From Mesostigma viride (lineage: Eukaryota; Streptophyta; Mesostigmatophyceae; Mesostigmatales; Mesostigmataceae), in assembly GCA_009746045.1 (NCBI GenBank), contig RPFO01000542.1, positions 126,501-190,500 on the forward strand: 64,000 nt of DNA, read 5' to 3'. Under the pieces are notes generated by a model that saw only the letters and a program-made list of their open reading frames with translations, was not told where the DNA came from and ran no database searches. Position 1 is the first letter of the stretch. Each line of letters begins with the position of its first letter. Shown one piece after another: positions 7,382 to 62,384 of this stretch. Both the position numbers and the translations under genes were made by a program.

Positions 7382-10300
7382 TTAAGCCGGTGGCAGCCCC
7401 TCCGGGGCTTGCTGGTTGCGTACAAGAGCGGTTAGCCACGCGTCAAGCTCCTTGCTCATATCAACGTAGGCTTGCCTTTGGTTGCCAAGGACCATGCACT
7501 GGAGCGGAAGAGCAGCGGAGATGCACAGATAGCAATCGACCAGGTCGGCTGGGCGGGACTCCGGCCAATCAGCCAAATCCAGAGTAAAATGCAGGGGGTC
7601 ATGCATATCTCGCTTCCACAGCCGAACCGCCAGAACGGCGTGGCCGGGCAAGAAAATCTCCTTCTGCCGTCCGTTTTGTCCCTCAACCCACCTAACCTCC
7701 TCCTTCTCCAGCACTGAGGCCTCCCTCACCACCTGCATCACCCAAAAAGGGTGGGCGGAATTGTGGTTCACGTCCTCTCTGTCTGACGGAACTGCGATGT
7801 AATCATACATGCGCATCTGCCTGCCAATGGCATCCCTTTGATCCTTCAGCAGTTCCGCCCGCGTCAGCTGGCGAACCGGAGGTATGGGCTGCGTTGGCGG
7901 CATCAGGCGGAAAGTTTTCATCGTTTGGCCCTCATCGTTAAATTCCTCGATATGTGTCCACTCGGTCCGGCACTCCTCCCACCTGTTAGCTAGGCAGGCT
8001 GGGCAGTAGCACGAAAAACGCCTCATCATCAGGAGCCCCGGGTCAGACTTGTCCAGGCGCCACCAGTGCGCTTGCTTGATGGCCTCGACACGCGTCGGTA
8101 TCATACGGGCGCCGGAGTCGAGGTCCTGCAATGAGGGAGAATGTCAGAAACGGAAAGTTGGTATGTGTCAATAGATCAAGTACACATGAAGGGTCACTCT
8201 GCAGAGATACCCCTTTGAAAGTGCTTTGCATGCATTTTTCACTATATAAGACGCTAATTCATACCAGTTCTTTTAGCATTATCAAATAATAAAATGCAAA
8301 TGGGCAAAAGGTCACTCTGCAGAGATACCTCAATCAAGTTCAAGAAAAATTGAGTTTCGCACCTCAGGAAAATGAAAGAAATGACGGTGGACGCCCTCTG
8401 CCCGAGCGCGGGCCGACTCCCTGCTCGTGGTTTTGCCTCCTTCCCAGCTGTCCCGCATGTACTTGACGATCTGGCGCCCTGTAACGATGCCCTGGTTCTC
8501 AGGAATGCATTGCATGTTCCTCACAATGCACTTGAACTTCGCTCCCTGACCATCCACCTCCCCCTTCCCGTGCTGCTCACCCAAGTAGTGGTACTCGAAG
8601 GATTCCAAGTCGGGATCCTGCATGAGGAGGCGGAAGACGGCGTTAACCACGTACTTGGACTTGAACTGGGATGAGCAGTTGTCAGAGCACATGAACATCC
8701 TCTTCACCCCCACACCAAGTCCGCGCAGGGTTTCCATGATTGTCCTCAGCGCGTAGACGAGCGCCCGCTCTCCCCGCTTCATCTTGGCTTCCCCGAGAAA
8801 AAAGAACGTTCGCTTTGCCATCGCACCATTGTGCAAATATCGCACGATCATGGGCATGAGGACAAAGCTCGTCTTGTGAAAGTACTGCGACTGCAGTTGG
8901 ACGTAGTTGTTGTTCTCGTAATTCTCGGCCCAATCTCCATGCACGAGCACATCCCCCTCAGTCATGTTCCTCTCCCGGTCCTTGATCGTTGCCGACTGCC
9001 ACCATGACGTAAAGCAGTGGTTGGTAAAGTCCTCCCAACTCTCGATAATCGCCAGCCTCAGCTGCGCGGGCGTTGACCTCATCGTTTCCTGTACGGGCCG
9101 CTTGACCTTCTCCGGGACCCGCCGATCGGTCGCGTCCTGTTTTAACCAAGGGATGAAGTAAATTTGCAAGTAACATATTCATAAAGTATCAGAAAAGCCT
9201 TTAAATTAACATCGCGCTGCAGAATGACGCTGCGAAATAATTGCGTCACAAAATCCAAACACGCTTACCTCCCCTGCCGGTCGGGAAACCACTACCTCCT
9301 TCTTCACGTATCTGAACCAATTTAGTAGTTCTGTTGAATTCTTGTCCCGGTCACACAACACCCAGTCTTTGATGCCACACCGGGACTCGGGACACGAGTT
9401 CTCCATACATGCCCTCTTCAGAATGCGAAAGACAGACCCCTCCTCCATGGATGGGTCCCCTACCCTTGGCACCCCTTCCTCATCCTCCACGATCCTCTCA
9501 TTTATTTCAAGATCGTCAAGGTCTTGCCCCTGCCATTCATCTTCCGTCACATTATTGTCCCCCCTCCTCTTCGTTTCTCGCCGAGTTTGCCCCACCCCCA
9601 GCTCACTACCCCCATCCGCCTCCGCCACACGGCAATGGAAGTGCTTCACCCATTCGGTCGTGTGCAGGCTTTCGAACATCCCGCACGTGCCGTCAGGCAA
9701 TCTCGCCCTTAAACATCCCTCACACTCGTCGCCGCACTTGCAGTTCTTGCCGTGCTTCGCCTTGCAGTACCTAGTCCATGCCGCTACCTTCGACTGCATG
9801 ACCGTATGCGTCTCACAGGCGCACACGTTTCTCTCCTTCCACTTCCCCTTGACGGTTTTGGGGGCGTACTTGCAGAAAGTCGTATATCCGACATGGATGC
9901 CGACATCCTTCTCATACTGCGGACTTTTCTTGTCCCAGTACGTGTGCTCCGCTAAAAACTTGAGATATATGTCCTCCTTCGAGGTGAGGTAGAAGTAGGC
10001 CCCTTGGACACCAACCAAAATCGCACGATTGCCAACTCGTTCGTGCGTCTTTATGGTATCCCTCTCTTGGGGCGAAGCGCGCGAGTTCTCCTCATCAGTC
10101 CAAGCCTGCGCGATCGACTCGATTACAAATTGGGGCAACTTCCTCTTCTTTCGCGCCAGCGCACGCGTCAGGAACTCCATCTTCTGTTGCTTTCTGATCG
10201 CCCGAACTTTGAGAATGGTCTTCGCGGGGACACCCGTCATTCTCTCCAACTCTGCCGCCGAAAACTCCTTCTCGATGTCGTCCCCACAAAAAAGAGTTGA

Positions 10301-10790
10301 CACCAAAATGATCTTGACGTCTCTGTCATGGTCGGATTTCGACAGGTCGTCAAAAAGGGCGATCAGCCGAGCCACCCAAGACCTCGACAGTTGTGCAAGC
10401 CGCTGCTCATCAAAAGCTTGGCCACCGGAATGTCAAAATGCTCCGCCTTGAGCTCGTCAGCCCTCTTATTGAAGCCATCAACAATCTCCTCAAAAGAGGC
10501 CCGCTTGGTAGATTCATTCCTCATGTGATGAACTACGTTGTACGCCTCATCAGCAAGATGAGTCCCCACAACAGACTTCTTCTCGGCGTACTGGCCAGGC
10601 CTTTTCGCTGGCTTCCTGACGGCGGGCGAGGTGCTGCGGTTCTCATTCCCGAAATTTCGTTTCGAGCTGTTTTTCAGATCCGCTGCAAGGGGCGTCGGTG
10701 TCCCGATGCTCAAGTTGTGGGCATTGAGTCGATTAGCAAAGCCGCCACGCAAGGAGGAGGAGGTTGGCGAAAGAAACACCCGTTCCCGTG
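7382..10790 (-). CDS. RNase H-fold DDE-type transposase-like protein, multi-exon
   Basis: Minus-strand gene with GT-AG introns. The exons inferred are about 10790-9269, 9136-8363 and 8125-7382 (stop at 7382), with clear donors (GAG|GTAAG at 9269, GAG|GTGCG at 8363) and acceptors (AACAG at 9137, TGCAG at 8126 and 10791). Exon 1 encodes a basic N-terminus, then a Cys-rich zinc-binding stretch (CACETH...CKCGDECEGC near 9740-9830) and a second cysteine group (CPESRCG near 9370). Exon 2 carries an RNase H-like core: HGDWAEN, SDNCSSQFKSK and HGKGEVDGQG. The acidic residues in these blocks are plausible D-D-D catalytic positions. The fold family resembles transposon-derived proteins with DxCxxQFK and HGKGxxDG motifs, which I know only as uncharacterised. 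One frameshift near 10412 breaks exon 1. It is the best candidate for mobilising the giant element. Confidence 0.6.
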
Positions 10791-12439: not shown

Positions 12440-13010
12440 TCAGCCAGCGATATGGCTTGTTTTTTCGTGTTGGTCCTCAGCCAGCGACATGACTTCTTTT
12501 TTCTGGTTGGTTCTCGGCCAGCGATATGCCTTCTTTTTAAGGGTTGGTCCTCAGCCAGCGACATGGCTTCTGTTTTCGTGTTGGTCCTCAGCCAGCGATA
12601 TGCCTTCTTTTTTAGGGTTGGTCCTCAGCCAGCAATATATTTTCTTTTTTCGCGTTGGTCCTCAGCCAGCGACACGGCTTCTTTTTTCTGGTTGGTTCTC
12701 GGCCAGCGATATGCCTTCTTTTTAAGGGTTGGTCCTCAGCCAGCGACATGGCTTCTGTTTTCGTGTTGGTCCTCAGCCAGCGATATGCCTTCTTTTTTAG
12801 GGTTGGTCCTCAGCCAGCAATATATTTTCTTTTTTCGTGTTGGTCCTCAGCCAGCGACACGGCTTCTTTTTTCTGGTTGGTTCTCGGCGAGCGACCAGAG
12901 TATTTTTTCGTATTGGTCCTCAGCCAGCTAAATGTTTTCTTTTTTCGTGTTGGTCCTCAGCCAGCCATATGGCTTCTTTTTTCGTGTTGGTCCTCAGCCA
13001 GCGATATGTC
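12440..13010 (+). repeat. Minisatellite, about 37-bp unit with 182-bp higher order
   Basis: The unit GGTCCTCAGCCAGCGAYATG followed by GCTTCTTTTTTCGTGTT repeats about 15 times. A block at about 12480-12660 is repeated nearly exactly at 12663-12845, which shows a five-unit higher-order repeat. It is open in several frames, but I see no evidence that it is translated. Confidence 0.9.
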
Positions 13011-13733
13011 CACCATCCATGCATGCCAGCACCCCACCACCATCATCCATGCGTGCCAGCCACCCACCACCACCATCCATGCATGCCAGCACCCCACCAC
13101 CACCATCCATGCGTGCCAGCACCCCACCACCACCATCCATGCATGCCAGCACCCCACCACCATCATCCATGCGTGCCAGCCACCCACCACCACCATCCAT
13201 GCGTGCCAGCACCCCACCACCATCATCCATGCGTGCCAGCCACCCACCACCACCATCCATGCGTGCCAGCACCCCACCACCATCATCCATGCATGCCAGC
13301 ACCCCACCACCACCATCCATGCGTGCCAGCACCCCACCACCACCATCCATGCATGCCAGCACCCCACCACCACCATCCATGCATGCCAGCACCCCACCAC
13401 CATCATCCATGCGTGCCAGCCACCCACCACCACCATCCATGCATGCCAGCACCCCACCACCACCATCCATGCATGCCAGCACCCCACCACCATCATCCAT
13501 GCATGCCAGCACCCCACCACCACCATCCATGCGTGCCAGCACCCCACCACCACCATCCATGCATGCCAGCACCCCACCACCATCATCCATGCGTGCCAGC
13601 CACCCACCACCACCATCCATGCGTGCCAGCCACCCACCACCATCATCCATGCATGCCAGCACCCCACCACCACCATCCATGCATGCCAGCACCCCACCAC
13701 CATCATCCATGCATGCCAGCACCATCATGCATG
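13010..13733 (+). repeat. 30-bp minisatellite array, first block (about 24 copies)
   Basis: The unit is CACCACCACCATCCATGC + RTGCCAGCACCC (or GCCACCC). Variation is limited to three sites: CACC/CATC, ATGC/GTGC/CTGC, and GCACCCC/GCCACCC. Because 30 is a multiple of three, all frames on both strands stay open for hundreds of codons, so these frames are not evidence of genes. Confidence 0.97.
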
Positions 13734-13949
13734 CATGCTCACATGGGTCTTATTGCACCCACAGTTTGCCGGATCGTTAGCCTGTCCTTTTAGCTAGCCG
13801 CGCCCGATTGCAGCTGTGGCATGCCTTTGGCATGAAGGAGACTGGGGGTCTCTGCCCTTTCTCCTGTAGTGCACACACAGGGATTAAAAGCACTTCGGTG
13901 CTCCGTGACTCCCCAACGGGAGCACGAGTTTAATTAATTAATTAATTAA
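13734..13949 (+). mobile_element. LINE 3'-tail insertion in the minisatellite
   Basis: The 213 bp from TCACATGGG to the terminal (TTAA)n run are essentially identical to 46692-46903, the 3' end of the ORF1-only LINE in this window. It is therefore a strongly 5'-truncated copy of that family, dropped into the 30-bp array. GCATGC on both sides may be the TSD, though the array makes that ambiguous. Confidence 0.85.
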
Positions 13950-16157
13950 TGCATGCCAGCACCCCACCACCATCATCCATGCGTGCCAGCCACCCACCAC
14001 CACCATCCATGCGTGCCAGCACCCCACCACCATCATCCATGCGTGCCAGCCACCCACCACCACCATCCATGCATGCCAGCACCCCACCACCACCATCCAT
14101 GCATGCCAGCACCCCACCACCACCATCCATGCATGCCAGCACCCCACCACCACCATCCATGCATGCCAGCACCCCACCACCACCATCCATGCATGCCAGC
14201 ACCCCACCACCATCATCCATGCGTGCCAGCCACCCACCACCACCATCCATGCATGCCAGCACCCCACCACCACCATCCATGCGTGCCAGCACCCCACCAC
14301 CACCATCCATGCGTGCCAGCCACCCACCACCACCATCCATGCATGCCAGCACCCCACCACCACCATCCATGCATGCCAGCACCCCACCACCACCATCCAT
14401 GCGTGCCAGCACCCCACCACCACCATCCATGCGTGCCAGCAGTGACCCCACCACCACCATCCATGCGTGCCAGCCACCCACCACCACCATCCATGCATGC
14501 CAGCCACCCACCACCACCATCCATGCCTGCCAGCACCCCACCACCATCATCCATGCGTGCCAGCCACCCACCACCACCATCCATGCGTGCCAGCCACCCA
14601 CCACCACCATCCATGCGTGCCAGCCACCCACCACCACCATCCATGCGTGCCAGCACCCCACCACCATCATCCATGCATGCCAGCACCCCACCACCACCAT
14701 CCATGCATGCCAGCACCCCACCATGCACCACCATCCATGCATGCCAGCACCCCACCACCATCATCCATGCGTGCCAGCCACCCACCACCACCATCCATGC
14801 GTGCCAGCACCCCACCACCACCATCCATGCGTGCCAGCACCCCACCACCACCATCCATGCGTGCCAGCCACCCACCACCACCATCCATGCATGCCAGCCA
14901 CCCACCACCACCATCCATGCCTGCCAGCACCCCACCACCATCATCCATGCGTGCCAGCCACCCACCACCACCATCCATGCGTGCCAGCCACCCACCACCA
15001 CCATCCATGCGTGCCAGCCACCCACCACCACCATCCATGCGTGCCAGCCACCCACCACCACCATCCATGCGTGCCAGCACCCCACCACCACCATCCATGC
15101 ATGCCAGCACCCCACCACCACCATCCATGCATGCCAGCACCCCACCACCATCATCCATGCGTGCCAGCCACCCACCACCACCATCCATGCATGCCAGCAC
15201 CCCACCACCACCATCCATGCATGCCAGCACCCCACCACCACCATCCATGCGTGCCAGCACCCCACCACCACCATCCATGCGTGCCAGCACCCCACCACCA
15301 CCATCCATGCGTGCCAGCCACCCACCACCACCATCCATGCATGCCAGCACCCCACCATGCACCACCATCCATGCATGCCAGCCACCCACCACCACCATCC
15401 ATGCCTGCCAGCACCCCACCACCATCATCCATGCGTGCCAGCCACCCACCACCACCATCCATGCGTGCCAGCACCCCACCACCACCATCCATGCATGCCA
15501 GCACCCCACCACCACCATCCATGCGTGCCAGCACCCCACCACCATCATCCATGCGTGCCAGCCACCCACCACCACCATCCATGCGTGCCAGCACCCCACC
15601 ACCACCATCCATGCATGCCAGCACCCCACCACCACCATCCATGCATGCCAGCACCCCACCACCACCATCCATGCATGCCAGCCACCCACCACCACCATCC
15701 ATGCATGCCAGCCACCCACCACCACCATCCATGCATGCCAGCCACCCACCACCACCATCCATGCCTGCCAGCACCCCACCACCATCATCCATGCGTGCCA
15801 GCCACCCACCACCACCATCCATGCCTGCCAGCACCCCACCACCATCATCCATGCGTGCCAGCCACCCACCACCACCATCCATGCGTGCCAGCCACCCACC
15901 ACCACCATCCATGCATGCCAGCACCCCACCACCACCATCCATGCGTGCCAGCACCCCACCACCACCATCCATGCATGCCAGCACCCCACCACCACCATCC
16001 ATGCATGCCAGCCACCCACCACCACCATCCATGCCTGCCAGCACCCCACCACCATCATCCATGCGTGCCAGCCACCCACCACCACCATCCATGCGTGCCA
16101 GCACCCCACCACCACCATCCATGCATGCCAGCACCCCACCACCACCATCCATGCGTG
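13949..16157 (+). repeat. 30-bp minisatellite array, second block (about 74 copies)
   Basis: Same unit and same three variable sites as the block at 13010-13733, from which it is separated only by the LINE-tail insertion. CATC-CATGCGTGCCAGCCACCC variants recur together, which suggests a higher-order pattern. Irregular units with an extra TGA or ATGC occur near 14435, 14720 and 15355. Confidence 0.97.
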
Positions 16158-16186: not shown

Positions 16187-16800
16187 TTGGGTAGGGTCGC
16201 TCTGCAGAGTGACCCCTACCCTTGCGCAATGTCGCAGTCTTTGTTTGAAGGGTCGCGCTGCAGAGTGACCCCCTCACAATGCAAATTTCCATTCAGTGTT
16301 TGTAGGGTCGCGCTGCAGAGTCACCTTTCCAAGATGCGTTATTCAATAACATTTTGTTCGTAAGGGCCGCGCTGCAGAGTCACCTTTCCAAGATACGTTA
16401 TTCAATAACATTTTGTTTGTAGGGTCGCGCTGCAGAGTCACCTTTCCAAGATACGTTATTCAATCACATTTTGGTTGTAGGGTCGCATTGCAGAGTCACC
16501 CTTTCCAGATACGTTATTCAATAACATTTTGTTTGTAGGGTAGCGCTGCAGAGTCACCTTTCCAAGATACGTTATTCAATCACATTTTTGTTGTAAGGTC
16601 GCGCTGCCGAGTCACCCTTTCCAGATACGTTTATCAATCACATTTTGTTTGTAGGGTCGGCTGCCGAGTCACCCTTCCATGAAATATTTTTATGCTATAT
16701 TTTGTTGGTAGGGTCGCGCTGCAGAGTCACCCTTCCTTAACATGGTTCTTATGTCTTATTTTGCGGAAGGGTCTCGCTACAGAATATTCCCTTCCCTGAC
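16187..16800 (+). repeat. 60-bp satellite built on a CTGCAG palindrome
   Basis: Eleven degenerating units of GGGTCGCGCTGCAGAGTCAC + CTTTCCAAGATACGTTATTC + AATAACATTTTGTTTGTA. The palindromic core is shared with isolated copies in introns and intergenic DNA of the same giant element. Confidence 0.92.
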
Positions 16801-17048
16801 ATATGTTACATCTTCGATTTTTTTTATCCCCATACCTGAATGAGTTACGTTAAATAGTGCCGGAACCTTTTGCCGCCTGAGGCAAATCGGGCCGGAACAC
16901 TATTTTGCCCGGAATAACCACTTCCGAGCACCCAAGTTAATTCGGCCGAATTAACTTGGGTGCTCGGAAGTGGTTATTCCGGGCAAAATAGTGTTCCGGC
17001 CCGATTTGCCTCAGGCGGCAAAAGGTTCCGGCACTATTTAACGTAACT

Positions 17049-17231
17049 AAAACCTGGCCTCGTGGAGGGGGGACGAAGAGCCCGAGACATCCGCCTAGGC
17101 CGCTGAGCACGCACCACTAAATGCGCCGGAGCTGCCTCAGTGAGGATTCGAACCCCTGACCTCCAAGGTGCACAGGTTTTAGTTACGTTAAATAGTGCCG
17201 GAACCTTTTGCCGCCTGAGGCAAATGGGTCC
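17049..17231 (-). ncRNA. Predicted Pol III unit, element copy 1, leftward
   Basis: Mirror image of the rightward unit. The A box is in the left arm of the central hairpin, the B box (GGATTCGAACC on plus, 17144-17154) in spacer S, and the terminator is AAAA on plus at 17049-17052. Together with its partner it would give two divergent transcripts from one hairpin. Confidence 0.5.
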
Positions 17232-17335
17232 GTAACACTATTTTGCCCGGAATAACCACTTCCGGGCACCCAAGTTAATTCGGCCGAATTAACTTGGGTG
17301 CCCGGAAGTGGTTATTCCGGGCAAAATAGTGTTAC

Positions 17336-17518
17336 GGACCGATTTGCCTCAGGCGGCAAAAGGTTCCGGCACTATTTAACGTAACTAAAACCTGTGCACC
17401 TTGGAGGTCAGGGGTTCGAATCCTCACTGAGGCAGCTCCGGCGCATTTAGTGGTGCGTGCTCAGCGGCCTAGGCGGATGTCTCGGGCTCTTCGTCCCCCC
17501 TCCACGAGGCCAGGTTTT
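17336..17518 (+). ncRNA. Predicted Pol III unit, element copy 1, rightward
   Basis: An A-box-like TTGCCTCAGGCGG (17344-17356, one mismatch to consensus, one-base spacer tolerance) lies in the right arm of the central hairpin. A perfect B box GGTTCGAATCC follows at 17413-17423 and the first TTTT comes at 17515-17518, exactly at the end of the spacer. Spacing is normal for a type 2 Pol III promoter. The start is inferred. Transcription is not shown. Confidence 0.5.
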
Positions 17519-17843
17519 AGTTACGTTAAATAGTGCCGGAACCTTTTGCCGCCTGAGGCAAATCGGGCCGGAACACTATTTTGCCCGGAATAACCACTTC
17601 CGGGCACCCAAGTTAATTCGGCCGAATTAACTTGGGTGCCCGGAAGTGGTTATTCCGGGCAAAATAGTGTTCCGGCCCGATTTGCCTCAGGCGGCAAAAG
17701 GTTCCGGCACTATTTAACGTAACTGAATGGGATTTCATCCTTGTTTCTTCTTAGGGTAGCGCTGCAGCGCCACCCATCACGCTGATGCGAATTTACACTT
17801 TCTTCATCCGACATTGGTCTATTTGTTTTTCCTTATTTGCCGC

Positions 17844-38457: not shown

Positions 38458-39311
38458 TGTCACGGACGCGAGCTATGTCATCCGGGCGGCGCCCACTATG
38501 CACAAGACCGGTGACGTGCGCAAGGAATTTGTTTTCTACGCATTTTCGACAAAGGCTAGTGACCGGGGGGGGACACTAGCACTTGCAGCATAAGAGCGGA
38601 CGAAAGTGTACGTGCATGCGCGCCGGGCCAGGCACAGCTGGGCGCGCAGCACTGACTTGAGCGGACGGCAGCACAAGTGCGCAGCGTCGAGAGGATCATA
38701 CGCGTGTTAGTGGACAGCTGGAGCTGAAGCTGGACTGCTGGACTTCAACAGCGCCGAGGCTATTGACAGGCCAGGTGTCTTTGTGGTGTAGAATAGCGGG
38801 TCAACGTTATGAGGACTGGACAGAAAATGAAAAAGGACAATTTGCGGTGCGGAGCCAGATCGCTGGAATGAATGCGAAATCGCTGGCAGCCCTACAAAGG
38901 GATTTCTTCTAGAAAGGAACGATTAGACGCAATGTTTGCTGGGCCACTCACACGCAAGGTGTGAGCGTGCAGATTGTCTGAAGGATATTATGCTTCGACC
39001 TTGCTGGACGTGACTCAATGTCGGACATTCCCAGGGACAGAAATGCCGGAGCCTCTAGGAGATGAGATCGGCAACAGGGTAGCAATTTAGATTTGTCGGG
39101 ATGCCTTCCTGCTTTTGTTGGCATGTGTGGTAGAAAGCCAGGACGGCAACTGGAATGCGGTTTCTATTTGCATGGTTCAGGCAGCAAGATAGTTTTGGCA
39201 TTCCTGGCTGGACTGACAAGTGTGGCGTGTGTCATGCGTGTGGCATGCATGACGAATGGTTTGGTTCATAGTCGAAGAGGACTCTCACGCAGCGTGTAGT
39301 CTCTTCGAGTA

Positions 39312-39596
39312 ATGAAAAGAGGGCTCTCAGCCGAGGACAAGGAACTGTCCCTCGTGCCTGATGACCACCTTCTTGATCCCCTTGTGTACCGTCGCGTGCC
39401 GCGTTTGAATATCCTTGCTGGGGCGTTAGCTAGACGCTCCAACTACTCTAATTGCGACAATATGATGGTGCAAGAGGGTGCTTTTGCCTCCCCTGCTATA
39501 GAACAATGCTTTCACAACACACACTTTGCACAGTCTGATGATGAAGCCGCACATGCGGAATTTATTGAGAAAGTTAATACAATTACAACACGTTGA
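39312..39596 (+). CDS. Small frame in segment B (94 codons), unknown
   Basis: Starts ATGAAAAGAGG two bases after segment A. It encodes an acidic, ordinary-looking sequence (DKELSLVPDDHLLDPLVY, AEFIEKVNTITTR) and is present a second time, inverted and identical, at 42417-42701. It may be the N-terminal remnant of the pol region upstream of integrase. Not recognised. Confidence 0.35.
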   Translation: MKRGLSAEDKELSLVPDDHLLDPLVYRRVPRLNILAGALARRSNYSNCDNMMVQEGAFASPAIEQCFHNTHFAQSDDEAAHAEFIEKVNTITTR

Positions 39597-39656
39597 TAGT
39601 CTCAATATCGATGCACTCCATGCTCACGAGCCCGCAGTTAGGCAGCGCTCCATGAC

Positions 39657-41278
39657 ATGCTACCGGCCTTGCTCCCTCTGCAGCAGCTGATCGCTGTGCA
39701 GGCTCTCTTAGCGCGTAGCTCTCTTGCTGATTGCTACACCGCTGATATCTGGCTAGATGGTCGAGTGTTGGAGCAAGTGCAGGGTGCTGTCTTGACTCCT
39801 ACTCCAGTCGATTGGACTCCTGCTCAGAAGGCAACGGAGTTGAACAGGGTGCAGCACAGGGCTGCAACCTATGGTTGGGAAGATGGGGTTTTGTACAAGC
39901 TGTTGGGCAAGCGTAGGGTGGTCGTCCCACCGCCTGACAAGCGCGTTGCTATAGTGCAGGCGTACCACGAGCGGTATGGTCACTTGGGTGGCAATCGCAC
40001 GCTCAGCCTCGTACGGACCAGTTATTGGTGGAATAACATGCGACACACGGTGGCCCAGGTAGTGGCCAGCTGTGTCCCGTGTGCTCGAACCAAGGCTAAC
40101 TTTAGCGCAGATCATGGTGCCAAGGAGCTGATGTCGCTTCCCATCAAGGGCTTGTTTTATCGCTGGCACGTCGATCTGTGCGGGCCGTTTCAGGAGAGCC
40201 CTGACGGCAACCTCTATGTCATGGTATGCGTGGAGAGCTTTAGCAAATGGGTTGAGTTGATCCCCATTGCTGACAAGCATGCCGCTACCACAGCGAAGCA
40301 TTTTGCGGACATCATAACCAGGTTTGGGGCTCCCGCGGAGGTAGTCACGGACCAGGGTGGTGAGTTCAGGGGTGAGTTCCAGGAGTTGCTGGATGGATGT
40401 CTTATTGATCACCGTCGCACTTCTCGGGAGCATCCTCAGGCCAATGGTTTGGCTGAGAGATTGGTGCAGACCGTCAAGCAGGCGCTGCGCAAGTGGAGCC
40501 TGCAGGTGCCGGAGTCGGCCAGGTGGGATCGCGAGTTGGCATGGATTGCCATGGGTTATCGCATGTCTCCCCAGAGTCTCTCGCTACCTTCTCCCCGTAT
40601 TTCCTTCTGTTCGGGCGTAATCCTCTTTTGCCTACGGAGGCACAGGTTGCGCACCCCGAACCCATGGCCTTCGACAACGCTCAGCAATTTTTGGTTGAGG
40701 TGCTGGCCAGGGCAGAGACTTTTAAGAAGGTCATGCCCATCGCGATGAACAACTTGTTCATTGCTCAGCACAGGGACTCCCTGCGTTACGCTCAGCGCCG
40801 GGGGGGCGCATACATGGCTCGCCAGCTGCGGTTTAGGCCAGGGCAGTATGTTTTCCTGCGCACTCAGCTGAAGCACACTTTGGATGTGGAGGCGGGGCCC
40901 ACCATTTTGCGCATTGTGGCTATCAAACCATCGGGAGTGGCAATTTTGGAGGGCGCCGACGGGAGCCGTACGACTGACAACCTCAGCAATCTCAGTCCCT
41001 GCTCGCTGCCCAATTTGGTCCACGACCTCCAACCGCACACGTCTCGCCGAGTCAAGGACGCCCAGTGTCAGGTTTGTCACCGGGTCGATCAGGCGGAGTC
41101 CATGTTATTGTGTGATCAGTGTAACTGTGGTTGGCACATGCAGTGCTTGCAGCCAGTGGTCACCAGCATTCCGGAGGGGGATTGGTTTTGTCCAGTGTGC
41201 ACCGCTGCGCAGTTTACCTCCCGCAGCTTGACTGCGGTCACCGCTGCCCTTGTCTTGGTACGATCGCTGTCTTCGTGA
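39657..41278 (+). pseudogene. Gypsy-type integrase with C-terminal PHD finger
   Basis: An H2C2 zinc-binding module (HERYGHLGG...CVPCARTK, about 39965-40095) is followed by the RNase H-like DDE core. WHVDLCGPF (40165-40195) gives the first D, VVTDQGGEF (40340-40370) the second, and EHPQANGLAERL (40428-40463) the glutamate. The spacing fits D-D-35-E. A one-base shift near 40560 moves the frame to SPYFLLFGRNPLLP. The C-terminal DNA-binding barrel follows (FRPGQYVFLRT, about 40830). The gene ends in a C4HC3 PHD finger (CQVCHRV...MLLCDQCNCGWHMQC...WFCPVC, 41067-41200) and a stop at 41278. PHD fingers read histone H3 tails and could steer insertion. The frameshift makes this copy inactive unless it is a sequencing error. 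Confidence 0.85.
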
Positions 41279-41304: not shown

Positions 41305-42416
41305 AATCATGGGACAGGTCCTCGCCCACCCCACAGGGCATGCAGTTAAGGCAGGCACGTCAGCTCAGCTCATTTGGGTTTTACCAAATTAAGCTGAGTG
41401 GCCAGCCGCCATGGTGGCGCCGGAGATTGTGGCACGCAGACGCGACAGCTGTCACGGACGCGAGCTATGTCATCCGGGCGGCGCCCACTATGCACAAGAC
41501 CGGTGACGTGCGCAAGGAATTTGTTTTCTACGCATTTTCGACAAAGGCTAGTGACCGGGGGGGACACTAGCACTTGCAGCATAAGAGCGGACGAAAGTGT
41601 ACGTGCATGCGCGCCGGGCCAGGCACAGCTGGGCGCGCAGCACTGACTTGAGCGGACGGCAGCACAAGTGCGCAGCGTCGAGAGGATCATACGCGTGTTA
41701 GTGGACAGCTGGAGCTGAAGCTGGACTGCTGGACTTCAACAGCGCCGAGGCTATTGACAGGCCAGGTGTCTTTGTGGTGTAGAATAGCGGGTCAACGTTA
41801 TGAGGACTGGACAGAAAATGAAAAGGACAATTTGCGGTGCGGAGCCAGATCGCTGGAATGAATGCGAAATCGCTGGCAGCCCTACAAAGGGATTTCTTCT
41901 AGAAAGGAACGATTAGACGCAATGTTTGCTGGGCCACTCACACGCAAGGTGTGAGCGTGCAGATTGTCTGAAGGATATTATGCTTCGACCTTGCTGGACG
42001 TGACTCAATGTCGGACATTCCCAGGGACAGAAATGCCGGAGCCTCTAGGAGATGAGATCGGCAACAGGGTAGCAATTTAGATTTGTCGGGATGCCTTCCT
42101 GCTTTTGTTGGCATGTGTGGTAGAAAGCCAGGACGGCAACTGGAATGCGGTTTCTATTTGCATGGTTCAGGCAGCAAGATAGTTTTGGCATTCCTGGCTG
42201 GACTGACAAGTGTGGCGTGTGTCATGCGTGTGGCATGCATGACGAATGGTTTGGTTCATAGTCGAAGAGGACTCTCACGCAGCGTGTAGTCTCTTCGAGT
42301 CTCTCGTTAGTGGCCTTCGTGTTTCTCCCTTTCCTTGGGAGCAAGGCCGGTAGCATGTCATGGAGCGCTGCCTAACTGCGGGCTCGTGAGCATGGAGTGC
42401 ATCGATATTGAGACTA

Positions 42417-42701
42417 TCAACGTGTTGTAATTGTATTAACTTTCTCAATAAATTCCGCATGTGCGGCTTCATCATCAGACTGTGCAAAGTGTGTGTTGTG
42501 AAAGCATTGTTCTATAGCAGGGGAGGCAAAAGCACCCTCTTGCACCATCATATTGTCGCAATTAGAGTAGTTGGAGCGTCTAGCTAACGCCCCAGCAAGG
42601 ATATTCAAACGCGGCACGCGACGGTACACAAGGGGATCAAGAAGGTGGTCATCAGGCACGAGGGACAGTTCCTTGTCCTCGGCTGAGAGCCCTCTTTTCA
42701 T
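42417..42701 (-). CDS. Inverted duplicate of the 94-codon frame
   Basis: Same 94 codons as 39312-39596, on the opposite strand, inside the inverted segment B'. Identity across the duplicate implies a recent event. Confidence 0.35.
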   Translation of the reverse strand: MKRGLSAEDKELSLVPDDHLLDPLVYRRVPRLNILAGALARRSNYSNCDNMMVQEGAFASPAIEQCFHNTHFAQSDDEAAHAEFIEKVNTITTR

Positions 42702-42845
42702 TAATCATGGGACAGGTCCTCGCCCACCCCACAGGGCATGCAGTTAAGGCAGGCACGTCAGCTCAGCTCATTTGGGTTTTACCAAATTAAGCTGAGTGGC
42801 CAGCCGCCATGGTGGCGCCGGAGATTGTGGCACGCAGACGCGACA

Positions 42846-42927
42846 CGGTAGTTTTGCCATTGAGTTTTAGACCCCTTTTTAAATATGAGGATTAGTGCGG
42901 TTTCTGCCCAGTTGCCAGGGACGATAC
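42846..42927 (-). pseudogene. LINE ORF2, RT N-terminal sliver
   Basis: Only 82 bp of the LINE RT remain between two insertions. On minus they encode VPGNWAETALILIFKKGSK, the familiar block before RT motif 1. They join 38457 on one side and 43964 on the other, in frame once the TSD copies GATAC and CGGT are removed. Confidence 0.85.
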
Positions 42928-43141
42928 AGTTATTATAAATAGTGACGGAACCTTTTTGCCACTTGGGCAATTAGGTCCGTCACTATTTATCCGGCGAAAA
43001 CCACTCGCCGGCATCTATTCCGCGTTAAGTTCACGTGAACGTGGCGCGGAATTGATGCCGGCGAGTGGTTTTCGCCGGATAAATAGTGACGGACCTAATT
43101 GCCCAAGTGGCAAAAAGGTTCCGTCACTATTTATAATAACT

Positions 43142-43389
43142 AAAACGTCGTAGTGTGGGGGCCGATATCTATCGTACCGCTAATGCCTACTGCAGTACCG
43201 AATCTCGCCTTAACGATATTCCAACCGGGCATTTTTCCCTTCTGGCACTTTCGTTTGGCCTTCTGGTATCAATTCCTTCCGGTATTCGGAAATACCCGTG
43301 TCACCACAGGGATTCGAACCCCCGACTTACGAGGTCTTAGTTATTATAAATAGTGACGGAACCTTTTTGCCACTTGGGCAATTAGGTCC
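43142..43389 (-). ncRNA. Predicted Pol III unit, element copy 2, leftward
   Basis: Mirror of the rightward unit: B box complement GGATTCGAACC at 43310-43320 and terminator AAAA (plus) at 43142-43145, with the A box in the left arm of the central hairpin. Confidence 0.5.
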
Positions 43390-43501
43390 GTCACTATTTA
43401 TCCGGCGAAAACCACTCGCCGGCATCTATTCCGCGTTAAGTTCACGTGAACGTGGCGCGGAATTGATGCCGGCGAGTGGTTTTCGCCGGATAAATAGTGA
43501 C

Positions 43502-43749
43502 GGACCTAATTGCCCAAGTGGCAAAAAGGTTCCGTCACTATTTATAATAACTAAGACCTCGTAAGTCGGGGGTTCGAATCCCTGTGGTGACACGGGTATT
43601 TCCGAATACCGGAAGGAATTGATACCAGAAGGCCAAACGAAAGTGCCAGAAGGGAAAAATGCCCGGTTGGAATATCGTTAAGGCGAGATTCGGTACTGCA
43701 GTAGGCATTAGCGGTACGATAGATATCGGCCCCCACACTACGACGTTTT
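43502..43749 (+). ncRNA. Predicted Pol III unit, element copy 2, rightward
   Basis: A-box-like TTGCCCAAGTGG (43510-43521, one mismatch) lies in the right arm of the central hairpin. The perfect B box GGTTCGAATCC is at 43571-43581 and the first TTTT at 43746-43749 closes the spacer. The same order and boundaries are seen in copy 1 despite different spacer sequences. Confidence 0.5.
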
Positions 43750-43963
43750 AGTTATTATAAATAGTGACGGAACCTTTTTGCCACTTGGGCAATTAGGTCC
43801 GTCACTATTTATCCGGCGAAAACCACTCGCCGGCATCAATTCCGCGCCACGTTCACGTGAACTTAATGCGGAATAGATGCCGGCGAGTGGTTTTCGCCGG
43901 ATAAATAGTGACGGACCTGATTGCCCAAGTGGCAAAAAGGTTCCGTCACTATTTATAATAACT

Positions 43964-44460
43964 GATACCTGTGCGCCATACTTCGAGGACGCATTTGTAA
44001 AAGCCGGCAGAAAGGTCGGGCCAAAACTTCCTCCAAAATTCTACAGGGATGCCGTCCACGCCGGGTGCACTGCCGAGTTTGATTTTGAGCATAGCAGCCT
44101 GTGTCTCAGCTTGTGCGGGTGTCTGATCTAGTTCTTGCTGCTGCGTGGTGGTGAGGCGCCGTGGTATCGCCTGAAGGACTTGGTGGATAGCTTGAGGTGC
44201 TTGAGGGTGCGGTTTACTTCGGAATAGCTTCGTAAAATATTGATGACCGCTGTTTAGTATGGAATGGGTGTCGGTGTGGATGCCCTGGTCGTCGTGAATT
44301 TCAGTTATCAGCGTGTGTGTTCGTTGCTTGGGGAGGAGTGCAAAATATTCTTTATTCATTTTTTCCCCCGTTGTGTGCCACCAAAGGTTTTCCGCATCTA
44401 TGGCGTTAGCGTGTCTTTCGTATCGCAGTTTGTCCAAGGCTAGCCATGGGCTTGTTGCAT
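43964..44460 (-). pseudogene. LINE ORF2, region upstream of RT
   Basis: Minus-strand frame of about 160 codons (DKLRYERHANAIDAENLWWH, ILNSGHQYFTKLF, LKIKLGSAPGVDGIPVEFWR). This matches the linker and first RT block of L1-like ORF2 proteins. Coding similarity stops near 44460, and no apurinic-type endonuclease is found upstream, so the copy is 5' truncated. Confidence 0.8.
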
Positions 44461-48346: not shown

Positions 48347-49125
48347 TGTAACAAGCAAAAATGACTTTGTTGTTACATCCTTTGTTTTGTGAATGTTTGG
48401 CTTTTATTTGAGGACTTTTGGATCAGTATTGAGAAAGTTATGAGGTTTCTAAGACGACGGTACTTGGAGCTGATACTTTGTCAACCAACTGATAGGAACC
48501 CTCATTGGTCGTGGCCTGATCCACGTAGGGTTGTAGTTTGTTGGCTGATACTACTGATAGGAGCCCTCATTGGTCGTGGCCTGATCCACGTGGGGTTGTA
48601 GTTTGTTAGTTGGTACTATTGAGTCTTAAATGCTCCTTTGGGACTTCAGTGCTTACGACAGATTTAGGATCTCATGAAAAGATTCTGCCAGGCTGTGTGT
48701 GGTGTTGTTCTGTTCTATGTGACTAGGATGGATACGAAGATCTTGTATAGAATCCCATGGTTCTGATTGGTTCTCTTCAGGCTAAGGTTGGAGCAAGTTC
48801 GACAAGCACGTCGATATCAAGGACGTGGGGTCGCCATTGTTGCGACGTTGGTTTTGATTCACCATGGTATAATAAAGCTTGGCTTTGTTGTCCAATTCAT
48901 AAGAGCCCCTTGGCTATAGACGTCCTTCAGTTCCACAGAGGTCGTCTACACACGAGCTTGTCTTTGTGTCTACAAGGGGTGTGATTCCCTAAATCACGTG
49001 CTGTGGAATTTCCATCTCAACGTTGCTCGGATACTTGAAGTTCTGCAACTCAAGAAAGCAACCCAGGTAACAGATCTTTCATATTGGACTGTGGATGATG
49101 CTGATGATCATTTTTAGTCGTTACA
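48347..49125 (+). repeat. 5' LTR
   Basis: Starts TGTAACAAGC and ends TCGTTACA. Contains an internal tandem TGATAGGARCCCTCATTGGT repeat (48490, 48551). Confidence 0.93.
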
Positions 49126-53659: not shown

Positions 53660-54438
53660 TGTAACAAGCAAAAATGACTTTGTTGTTACATCCTTTGTTT
53701 TGTGAATGTTTGGCTTTTATTTGAGGACTTTTGGATCAGTATTGAGAAAGTTATGAGGTTTCTAAGACGACGGTACTTGGAGCTGATACTTTGTCAACCA
53801 ACTGATAGGAACCCTCATTGGTCGTGGCCTGATCCACGTAGGGTTGTAGTTTGTTGGCTGATACTACTGATAGGAGCCCTCATTGGTCGTGGCCTGATCC
53901 ACGTGGGGTTGTAGTTTGTTAGTTGGTACTATTGAGTCTTAAATGCTCCTTTGGGACTTCAGTGCTTACGACAGATTTAGGATCTCATGGAAAGATTCTG
54001 CCAGGCTGTGTGTGGTGTTGTTCTGTTCTGTGTGACTAGGATGGATACGAAGATCTTGTATAGAATCCCATGGTTCTGATTGGTTCTCTTCAGGCTAAGG
54101 TTGGAGCAAGTTCGACAAGCACGTCGATATCAAGGACGTGGGGTCGCCATTGTTGCGACGTTGGTTTTGATTCACCATGGTATAATAAAGCTTGGCTTTG
54201 TTGTCCAATTCATAAGAGCCCCTTGGCTATAGACGTCCTTCAGTTCCACAGAGGTCGTCTACACACGAGCTTGTCTTTGTGTCTACAAGGGGTGTGATTC
54301 CCTAAATCACGTGCTGTGGAATTTCCATCTCAACGTTGCTCGGATACTTGAAGTTCTGCAACTCAAGAAAGCAACCCAGGTAACAGATCTTTCATATTGG
54401 ACTGTGGATGATGCTGATGATCATTTTTAGTCGTTACA
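53660..54438 (+). repeat. 3' LTR
   Basis: Near-identical to 48347-49125. Visible differences are A/G near 48678/53990 and A/G near 48718/54030. Confidence 0.93.
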
Positions 54439-61559: not shown

Positions 61560-62340
61560 AAAAGAAGAGAAGAGAAGAGAAAAGAAAAGAACAGAACAGA
61601 ACAGAACAGAACAGAACAGAACAGAACAGAACAGAACAGAACAGAACAGAACAGAACAGAACAGAACAGAACAGAACAGAACAGAACAGAACAGAACAGA
61701 ACAGAACAGGGCAGGGCAGGGCAGGGCAGGGCAGGGCAGGGCAGGGCAGGGCAGGGCAGGGCAGGGCAGGGCAGGGCAGGGCAGGGCAGGGCAGGGCAGG
61801 GCAGGGCAGGGCAGGGCAGGGCAGGGCAGGGCAGGGCAGGGCAGGGCAGGGCAGGGCAGGGCAGGGCAGGGCAGGGCAGGGCAGGGCAGGGCAGGGCAGG
61901 GCAGGGCAGGGCAGGGCAGGGCAGGGCAGGGCAGGGCAGGGCAGGGCAGGGCAGGGCAGGGCAGGGCAGGGCAGGGCAGGGCAGGGCAGGGCAGGGCAGG
62001 GCAGGGCAGGGCAGGGCAGGGCAGGGCAGGGCAGGGCAGGGCAGGGCAGGGCAGGGCAGGGCAGGGCAGGGCAGGGCAGGGCAGGGCAGGGCAGGGCAGG
62101 GCAGGGCAGGGCAGGGCAGGGCAGGGCAGGGCAGGGCAGGGCAGGGCAGGGCAGGGCAGGGCAGGGCAGGGCAGGGCAGGGCAGGGCAGGGCAGGGCAGG
62201 GCAGGGCAGGGCAGGGCAGGGCAGGGCAGGGCAGGGCAGGGCAGGACAGAACAGAAGAGAACAGAACAGAACAGAACAGAAAAGAAAAGAAAAGAAAAGA
62301 AAAGAAAAGAAAAGAAAAGAAAAGAAAAGAAAAAAGGAAA
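61560..62340 (+). repeat. Pentamer satellite in three zones: ACAGA, GGGCA, AGAAA
   Basis: About 24 ACAGA units (61585-61705) change abruptly to about 108 GGGCA units (61706-62243), then to ACAGA/AGAAA units to 62330. The period stays at five throughout. The frames open through it encode only PALPC/GQGRA-type repeats and are not genes. Confidence 0.97.
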
Positions 62341-62384
62341 GGAAAGGGAAAAAAAGAGAAAAAAGAAATGCCAACCCAAGAACG

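Follow-up and report, generated by a model that had tools for sequence, protein, structure and literature searches.

Two copies of a palindromic element in the window

Both of the sites examined in the window (the whole 64-kb stretch of DNA that was analysed) are complete copies of a mirror-symmetric repeated DNA element, here called E1 and E2, with the layout P-S'-P-S-P (Table 1). The palindrome P measures 206 bp in E1 and 214 bp in E2 and is bounded by AGTTA...TAACT; the spacer S has 132 bp in E1 and 197 bp in E2, and in each element S' matches the reverse complement of S exactly. The elements, spanning 16843-17724 (E1) and 42928-43963 (E2), are themselves palindromes over their entire length, with arms of 441 and 519 nt, respectively, that are 99 % complementary. 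The A-box-like, B-box and TTTT motifs that had first drawn attention to these sites are parts of larger elements, and the initial annotation had missed that the sites are copies of an inserted, high-copy element.

The motifs themselves had been placed rightly. The A-box-like motifs are TTGCCTCAGGCGG at 17344 and TTGCCCAAGTGG at 43510, and the B box, GGTTCGAATCC, lies in the spacer at 17413 and 43571, which is 69 or 61 bp further on, start to start (56 or 49 bp between the boxes). Mirror copies of both are found on the minus strand, and the TTTT at the end of S is the only one on the plus strand from the A-box-like motif to the S end, though a short spacer that has no second TTTT is weak evidence taken alone. 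Antisense partner RNAs had also been proposed; with S' and S being exact reverse complements of each other, a leftward transcript would share the spacer sequence of the rightward transcript and would not be antisense to it.

Table 1. Positions in the window of the features of the elements E1 and E2
Feature	Position	Strand
E1 left target duplication, GAATG	16838..16842	
E1 palindrome P1, 206 bp	16843..17048	
E1 spacer S', exact reverse complement of S	17049..17180	-
E1 S' terminal TTTT, predicted terminator	17049..17052	-
E1 S' B box, GGTTCGAATCC	17144..17154	-
E1 central palindrome P2	17181..17386	
E1 A-box-like motif, P2 left arm, not above chance	17211..17223	-
E1 A-box-like motif, P2 right arm, not above chance	17344..17356	+
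E1 spacer S, S1 type	17387..17518	+
E1 S B box, GGTTCGAATCC	17413..17423	+
E1 S terminal TTTT, predicted terminator	17515..17518	+
E1 palindrome P3	17519..17724	
E1 right target duplication, GAATG	17725..17729	
E2 left target duplication, GATAC	42923..42927	
E2 palindrome P1, 214 bp	42928..43141	
E2 spacer S', exact reverse complement of S	43142..43338	-
E2 S' terminal TTTT, predicted terminator	43142..43145	-
E2 S' B box, GGTTCGAATCC	43310..43320	-
E2 central palindrome P2	43339..43552	
E2 A-box-like motif, P2 left arm, not above chance	43370..43381	-
E2 A-box-like motif, P2 right arm, not above chance	43510..43521	+
E2 spacer S, S2 type	43553..43749	+
E2 S B box, GGTTCGAATCC	43571..43581	+
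E2 S terminal TTTT, predicted terminator	43746..43749	+
E2 palindrome P3	43750..43963	
E2 right target duplication, GATAC	43964..43968	

The window contains several further features. An integrase frame, matching proteins from Volvox reticuliferus (49 % over 80 %), Klebsormidium nitens (47 % over 77 %) and Calypogeia fissa (49 % over 68 %), is flanked by a 370-bp inverted repeat (39307-39676 and 42337-42706) whose halves are 100 % complementary and 2,660 bp apart. Its matches make a host of the green lineage probable. Three long open frames in a row on the minus strand (7382-10432) look transposase-like by eye only and have no Pfam match. Tandem repeats include a long array of about 104 copies of a 30-bp unit (13010-16157), units of about 55-58 bp with GGTCGCGCTGCAGAGTCACC (16191-16783), successive arrays of the pentanucleotides AGAAC, CAGGG and AGAAA (61563-62368), and two arrays of one 65-bp unit (48488-48622 and 53801-53935) that lie 5.3 kb apart, suggesting a duplicated segment.

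Copies in the genome and target duplications

The genome searched comprises 440 Mb in 2,243 contigs. The terminal pattern AGTTANNNTAAATAGTGNCGGAACC was found 1,825 times in forward and 1,847 times in reverse orientation, and a pattern combining the P end with the B box identified 1,110 units (552 and 558); the control gave 0 matches in both searches. Forty loci were fetched, 24 from the first 100 AGTTANNNTAAATAGTGNCGGAACC places listed and 16 from the best E1 matches, the latter favouring the three-palindrome E1 form. These loci, together with L007 and the two window elements, yielded 40 complete copies with both flanks.

An exact 5-bp duplication flanks 37 of the 40 complete copies and an exact 6-bp duplication none of them. 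Of the three copies lacking an exact duplication, L063 has a 13-base remnant of P followed by GGGCG, as on its left side, one of the L074 elements is cut at the edge of the fetched sequence, and L052 has a rearranged right end without a match. Copies consisting of a single P, without S and without a B box (L039, L043, L046, L054 and L055), are also flanked by 5-bp duplications, though those of L046 and L054 (CCCCC) lie within a C run and are weak. E2 itself interrupts an open frame, and when the flanks are joined with one copy of the duplication the frame reads through. We take the broken frame, by eye, to be LINE reverse transcriptase-like; a LINE at this site was not accepted, and as no Pfam family was found in either flank piece it is called here only an open frame.

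One chimera (L095, G000:C113:5801700-5803300) has an E1-type left end, one S1 spacer, a hybrid P, one S2 spacer and an E2-type right end, and is flanked by CCGGG on both sides. Mixed ends within a single duplication suggest that the E1 and E2 families probably share one putative transposase. No transposase and no autonomous partner for the element family was found in the sequence examined. Stretches resembling the P ends were found in one viral and one prokaryotic scan (6 and 11 stretches, respectively), and an origin from either source was rejected, the matches being put down to chance because none continues into the rest of P.

Modular structure and orientation of the units

The copies have the general layout P(SP)n, ranging from a solo P through P-S-P to an element with five spacers (L062). 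Among the first 100 units listed, neighbours less than 700 bp apart formed 34 divergent, one convergent and seven tandem pairs. The p of 2e-9 for the excess of divergent over convergent pairs treats the units as independent, although related copies do not satisfy this, and among the 34 divergent pairs three are spaced wider and may skip an unmatched unit. In the elements with two clean spacers, 20 of 20 are divergent; L047 was left out of this count, its second spacer being a 371-bp fusion (1528-1898) of two opposed S2 spacers that have lost the intervening palindrome and are adjoined by 70-bp remnant palindromes. The single convergent pair, in L066, looks like two elements with a common P. 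Common descent within a family could explain the divergent pattern, yet it is seen in both E1 and E2. A solo palindrome in L039 (1021-1256) has a divergent centre and perhaps represents a further P family.

The arms of 118 palindromes were compared. For E1, they differ at a mean of 0.78 positions within the same P, 1.46 between different P of one element and 2.75 between elements, and the small AGTTAGG group follows the same order (1.5, 2.62 and 3). For E2, the corresponding values are 4.48, 2.97 and 4.74; the arms have a fixed central asymmetry and the within-P value is not lower. Spacers are also most alike within an element, S1 differing by 0.58 within and 1.18 between elements and S2 by 0.5 and 4.86, and random regrouping was as tight in only 0 (S1) and 1 (S2) of 2,000 shuffles. 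Since the S copies of one element are nearly identical, the symmetry is maintained or remade. This likeness likely stems from fold-back copying or gene conversion, and amplification of already homogenised masters could contribute to it.

Predicted Pol III-type signals in the spacers

The pattern GGTTC[AG]ANNCC occurs only four times in the 64-kb window, counting both strands, at the B boxes of E1 and E2, and in 124 kb of fetched loci it always falls within a spacer. Of 87 spacer segments, 82 were counted; four were outside the length range, and the fifth excluded segment was the single S3 spacer (from L059), which carries GGTTCGAAACC as its B box. The B box is exact in all 67 S1 units and 12 of 15 S2 units (79/82 overall), TTTT is absent from the interior of every counted unit, and GTTTT closes 81 of them. 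S1 and S2 are almost beyond alignment and both retain the B box. S1 and S3 differ at two of the first 37 bases, at 22 of the middle 75 columns and at two of the last 25, a pattern of conserved ends that could reflect recombination near P. Within families, depletion of variants in the B box was not significant (0 of 17 in S1, 1.4 expected; 2 of 35 in S2, 1.9 expected). Both spacers of L051 carry a damaged B box, from which it follows that a copy without a B box may have moved or been homogenised.

It had been argued that promoter parts and terminator were conserved while the spacer sequence changed. B box, terminal TTTT and outward layout bear this out, recurring across copies and three diverged spacer types; the A box does not rise above chance. 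Compared with TRGYNNARYGG (or longer forms), five P arms each match with one mismatch at best, and 142-155 of 500 dinucleotide shuffles do equally well. For E1 and its variant, moreover, this closest match lies elsewhere than at the position first proposed. The initial annotation had also held that family members lacking the boxes and with TTTT inside the unit would speak against it. Copies without an intact B box exist, namely the solo-P copies and the three of 15 S2 units in which the B box is damaged, but none of the 82 counted units has an internal TTTT.

The idea that the transcripts are tRNA-like fared less well, as no conserved tRNA fold was found and tRNA models stayed below cut-off. 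ARAGORN predicted 0 tRNA genes at the sites, its output under loosened settings being hundreds of spurious hits that were discarded, and with the Rfam tRNA model E2 scored 17.4 bits against a cut-off of 29 and E1 had no match. In tRNA numbering, S corresponds approximately to positions 44 to 73, covering the variable loop, the T arm, a 7-base acceptor strand and an A; the T arm pairs at 3 or 4 of 5 positions and the acceptor partner is not conserved. With no cloverleaf above the cut-off and the pairing not conserved, a tRNA gene was rejected. An acceptor stem formed by a 7-base match between GCCTCAG in P and CTGAGGC in S1 was treated as coincidence, because the S3 strand does not fully fit and the exact partner of S2 is absent from its P. 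Vault RNA, mascRNA and other Rfam matches were below their cut-offs. The sense strand folds better than the antisense strand (z of -2.1 for S1, -4.5 for S3 and -3.3 for S2), and selection on a sense-strand RNA was dropped as an explanation since the strand difference was not significant against shuffles (fractions 0.09 to 0.20).

Interpretation

These copies represent a new family of non-autonomous palindromic elements, likely with outward-facing units of predicted Pol III type. Judged from the sequence, the Pol III reading of the units is plausible but unproven. In the explanation that we favour, a transposase supplied by another element would move the copies, with the P termini AGTTA...TAACT as the putative transposase ends. 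The B box of S would be recognised by TFIIIC. Transcription by Pol III would begin within the neighbouring P arm and end at the TTTT where S meets P, so that both sides would yield the same small RNA, some 180 or 250 nt long, with identical spacer sequence. Recombination at P may make the elements grow and shrink, and fold-back copying or gene conversion would keep the halves alike. We give this whole explanation, a palindromic element moved by a transposase supplied in trans and carrying predicted Pol III spacer units that fire outward from the central palindrome, a probability of roughly 0.5. The likely role of the predicted promoter would be to keep the element transcribed or open, thus aiding its spread. 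That the family is one of DNA transposons with a mirrored pair of Pol III genes for the same RNA, in which the mirror is remade during spread and the pair aids it, can be put forward only tentatively.

The alternative that survives best accepts the same mobile element and sees in the B box what remains of a captured tRNA 3' half, or just a TFIIIC site, with no Pol III transcript; the S ends would then resemble one another through common ancestry and through recombination at P. The A box that does not exceed chance, the damaged B box in three of 15 S2 units, and the reading of S as tRNA positions 44 to 73, despite its imperfect T arm and an acceptor partner that is not conserved, speak for it. 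However, the box survives in S1, S2 and S3 despite their diverged bodies, and a terminal TTTT in 81 of 82 units with none inside in all 82 also goes against a relic, which we consider rather unlikely.

An LTR-type miniature retro-element (a TRIM with a Pol III promoter), with P as the LTR, S as the internal region and solo P as solo LTRs, is improbable. The 5-bp duplications, the solo P, the tandem arrays sharing P and, in E1 only, the near-identity of P within one element would suit it, all being features known for Helenus and Cassandra (PMC10886601, PMC7215508). However, P is palindromic and ends in AGTTA...TAACT rather than TG...CA, and the spacers are mostly in opposite orientation, unlike those of LTR elements. 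Nor, in the 25 border bases inspected, do the strands of S2 show a TGG primer-binding start where P meets S, and S1 and S3 have there just one TGG, on the antisense strand and displaced by 6 bases. In a further reading, transcription that enters from a promoter nearby would produce a long hairpin RNA from which silencing RNA is made, with the boxes incidental. Whole elements that are 99 % perfect palindromes would fit this, but any palindrome folds, and both the B box and the TTTT at the spacer end would be coincidence; this is the least credible of the readings.

Comparison with known elements

MITEs and foldback elements are non-coding, high-copy and hairpin-forming, with inverted-repeat ends and a target duplication of fixed length. 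The elements described here resemble them in each of these respects, having the terminal inverted repeats AGTTA...TAACT and a fixed 5-bp duplication, and differ in their modular build, in which palindromes alternate with Pol III-type spacers and the spacers form an outward pair. SINEs are dispersed repeats with a tRNA-type B box, target duplications of variable length and a transcript that spans the element. The B box in a dispersed repeat is shared with them, whereas the elements in this study have inverted-repeat ends and fixed 5-bp duplications, and the predicted transcript would cover only part of the element, the TTTT at the S/P border lying inside it. A literature search, judged from titles and the openings of abstracts, found no prior description of such an element.

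The nearest described repeats with Pol III promoters are Helenus and Cassandra. Helenus (TRIMp3) is described as short and non-coding, with a tRNA-type B box in which GGTTC is conserved, 5-bp duplications in fungi and plants, and solo repeats; its boxes lie inside direct LTRs, and it has a primer-binding site and a polypurine tract (PMC10886601). The B box, the duplication (4 or 5 bp in TRIMs, 5 bp in Helenus) and the solo repeats thus have counterparts in the palindromic element, which differs from Helenus in its palindromic ends, the position of the B box in the spacer and its inverted spacer pairs. Cassandra is non-coding, has a 5S-type Pol III promoter in its LTRs, and forms tandem arrays of repeated LTRs with the internal domain as spacer (PMC7215508). 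A Pol III-type promoter, in the present element a predicted one, the absence of coding capacity and tandem arrays of repeat plus spacer are common to both, and the mirrored spacer pairs and tRNA-type B box set the present element apart from Cassandra.

Among mobile DNA, retro-elements such as SINEs, Cassandra and, by sequence, Helenus are known to carry Pol III promoters, and a palindromic element resembling DNA transposons with outward Pol III-type units would offer these promoters a further way to spread. The family would allow a test of whether transcription at a hairpin aids transposition, and its near-identical opposing spacers offer a natural system for the upkeep of palindrome symmetry in a eukaryotic genome. 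If the tentative reading of a mirrored Pol III pair is true, the family would be the DNA-transposon counterpart of SINEs and Pol III-driven TRIMs.
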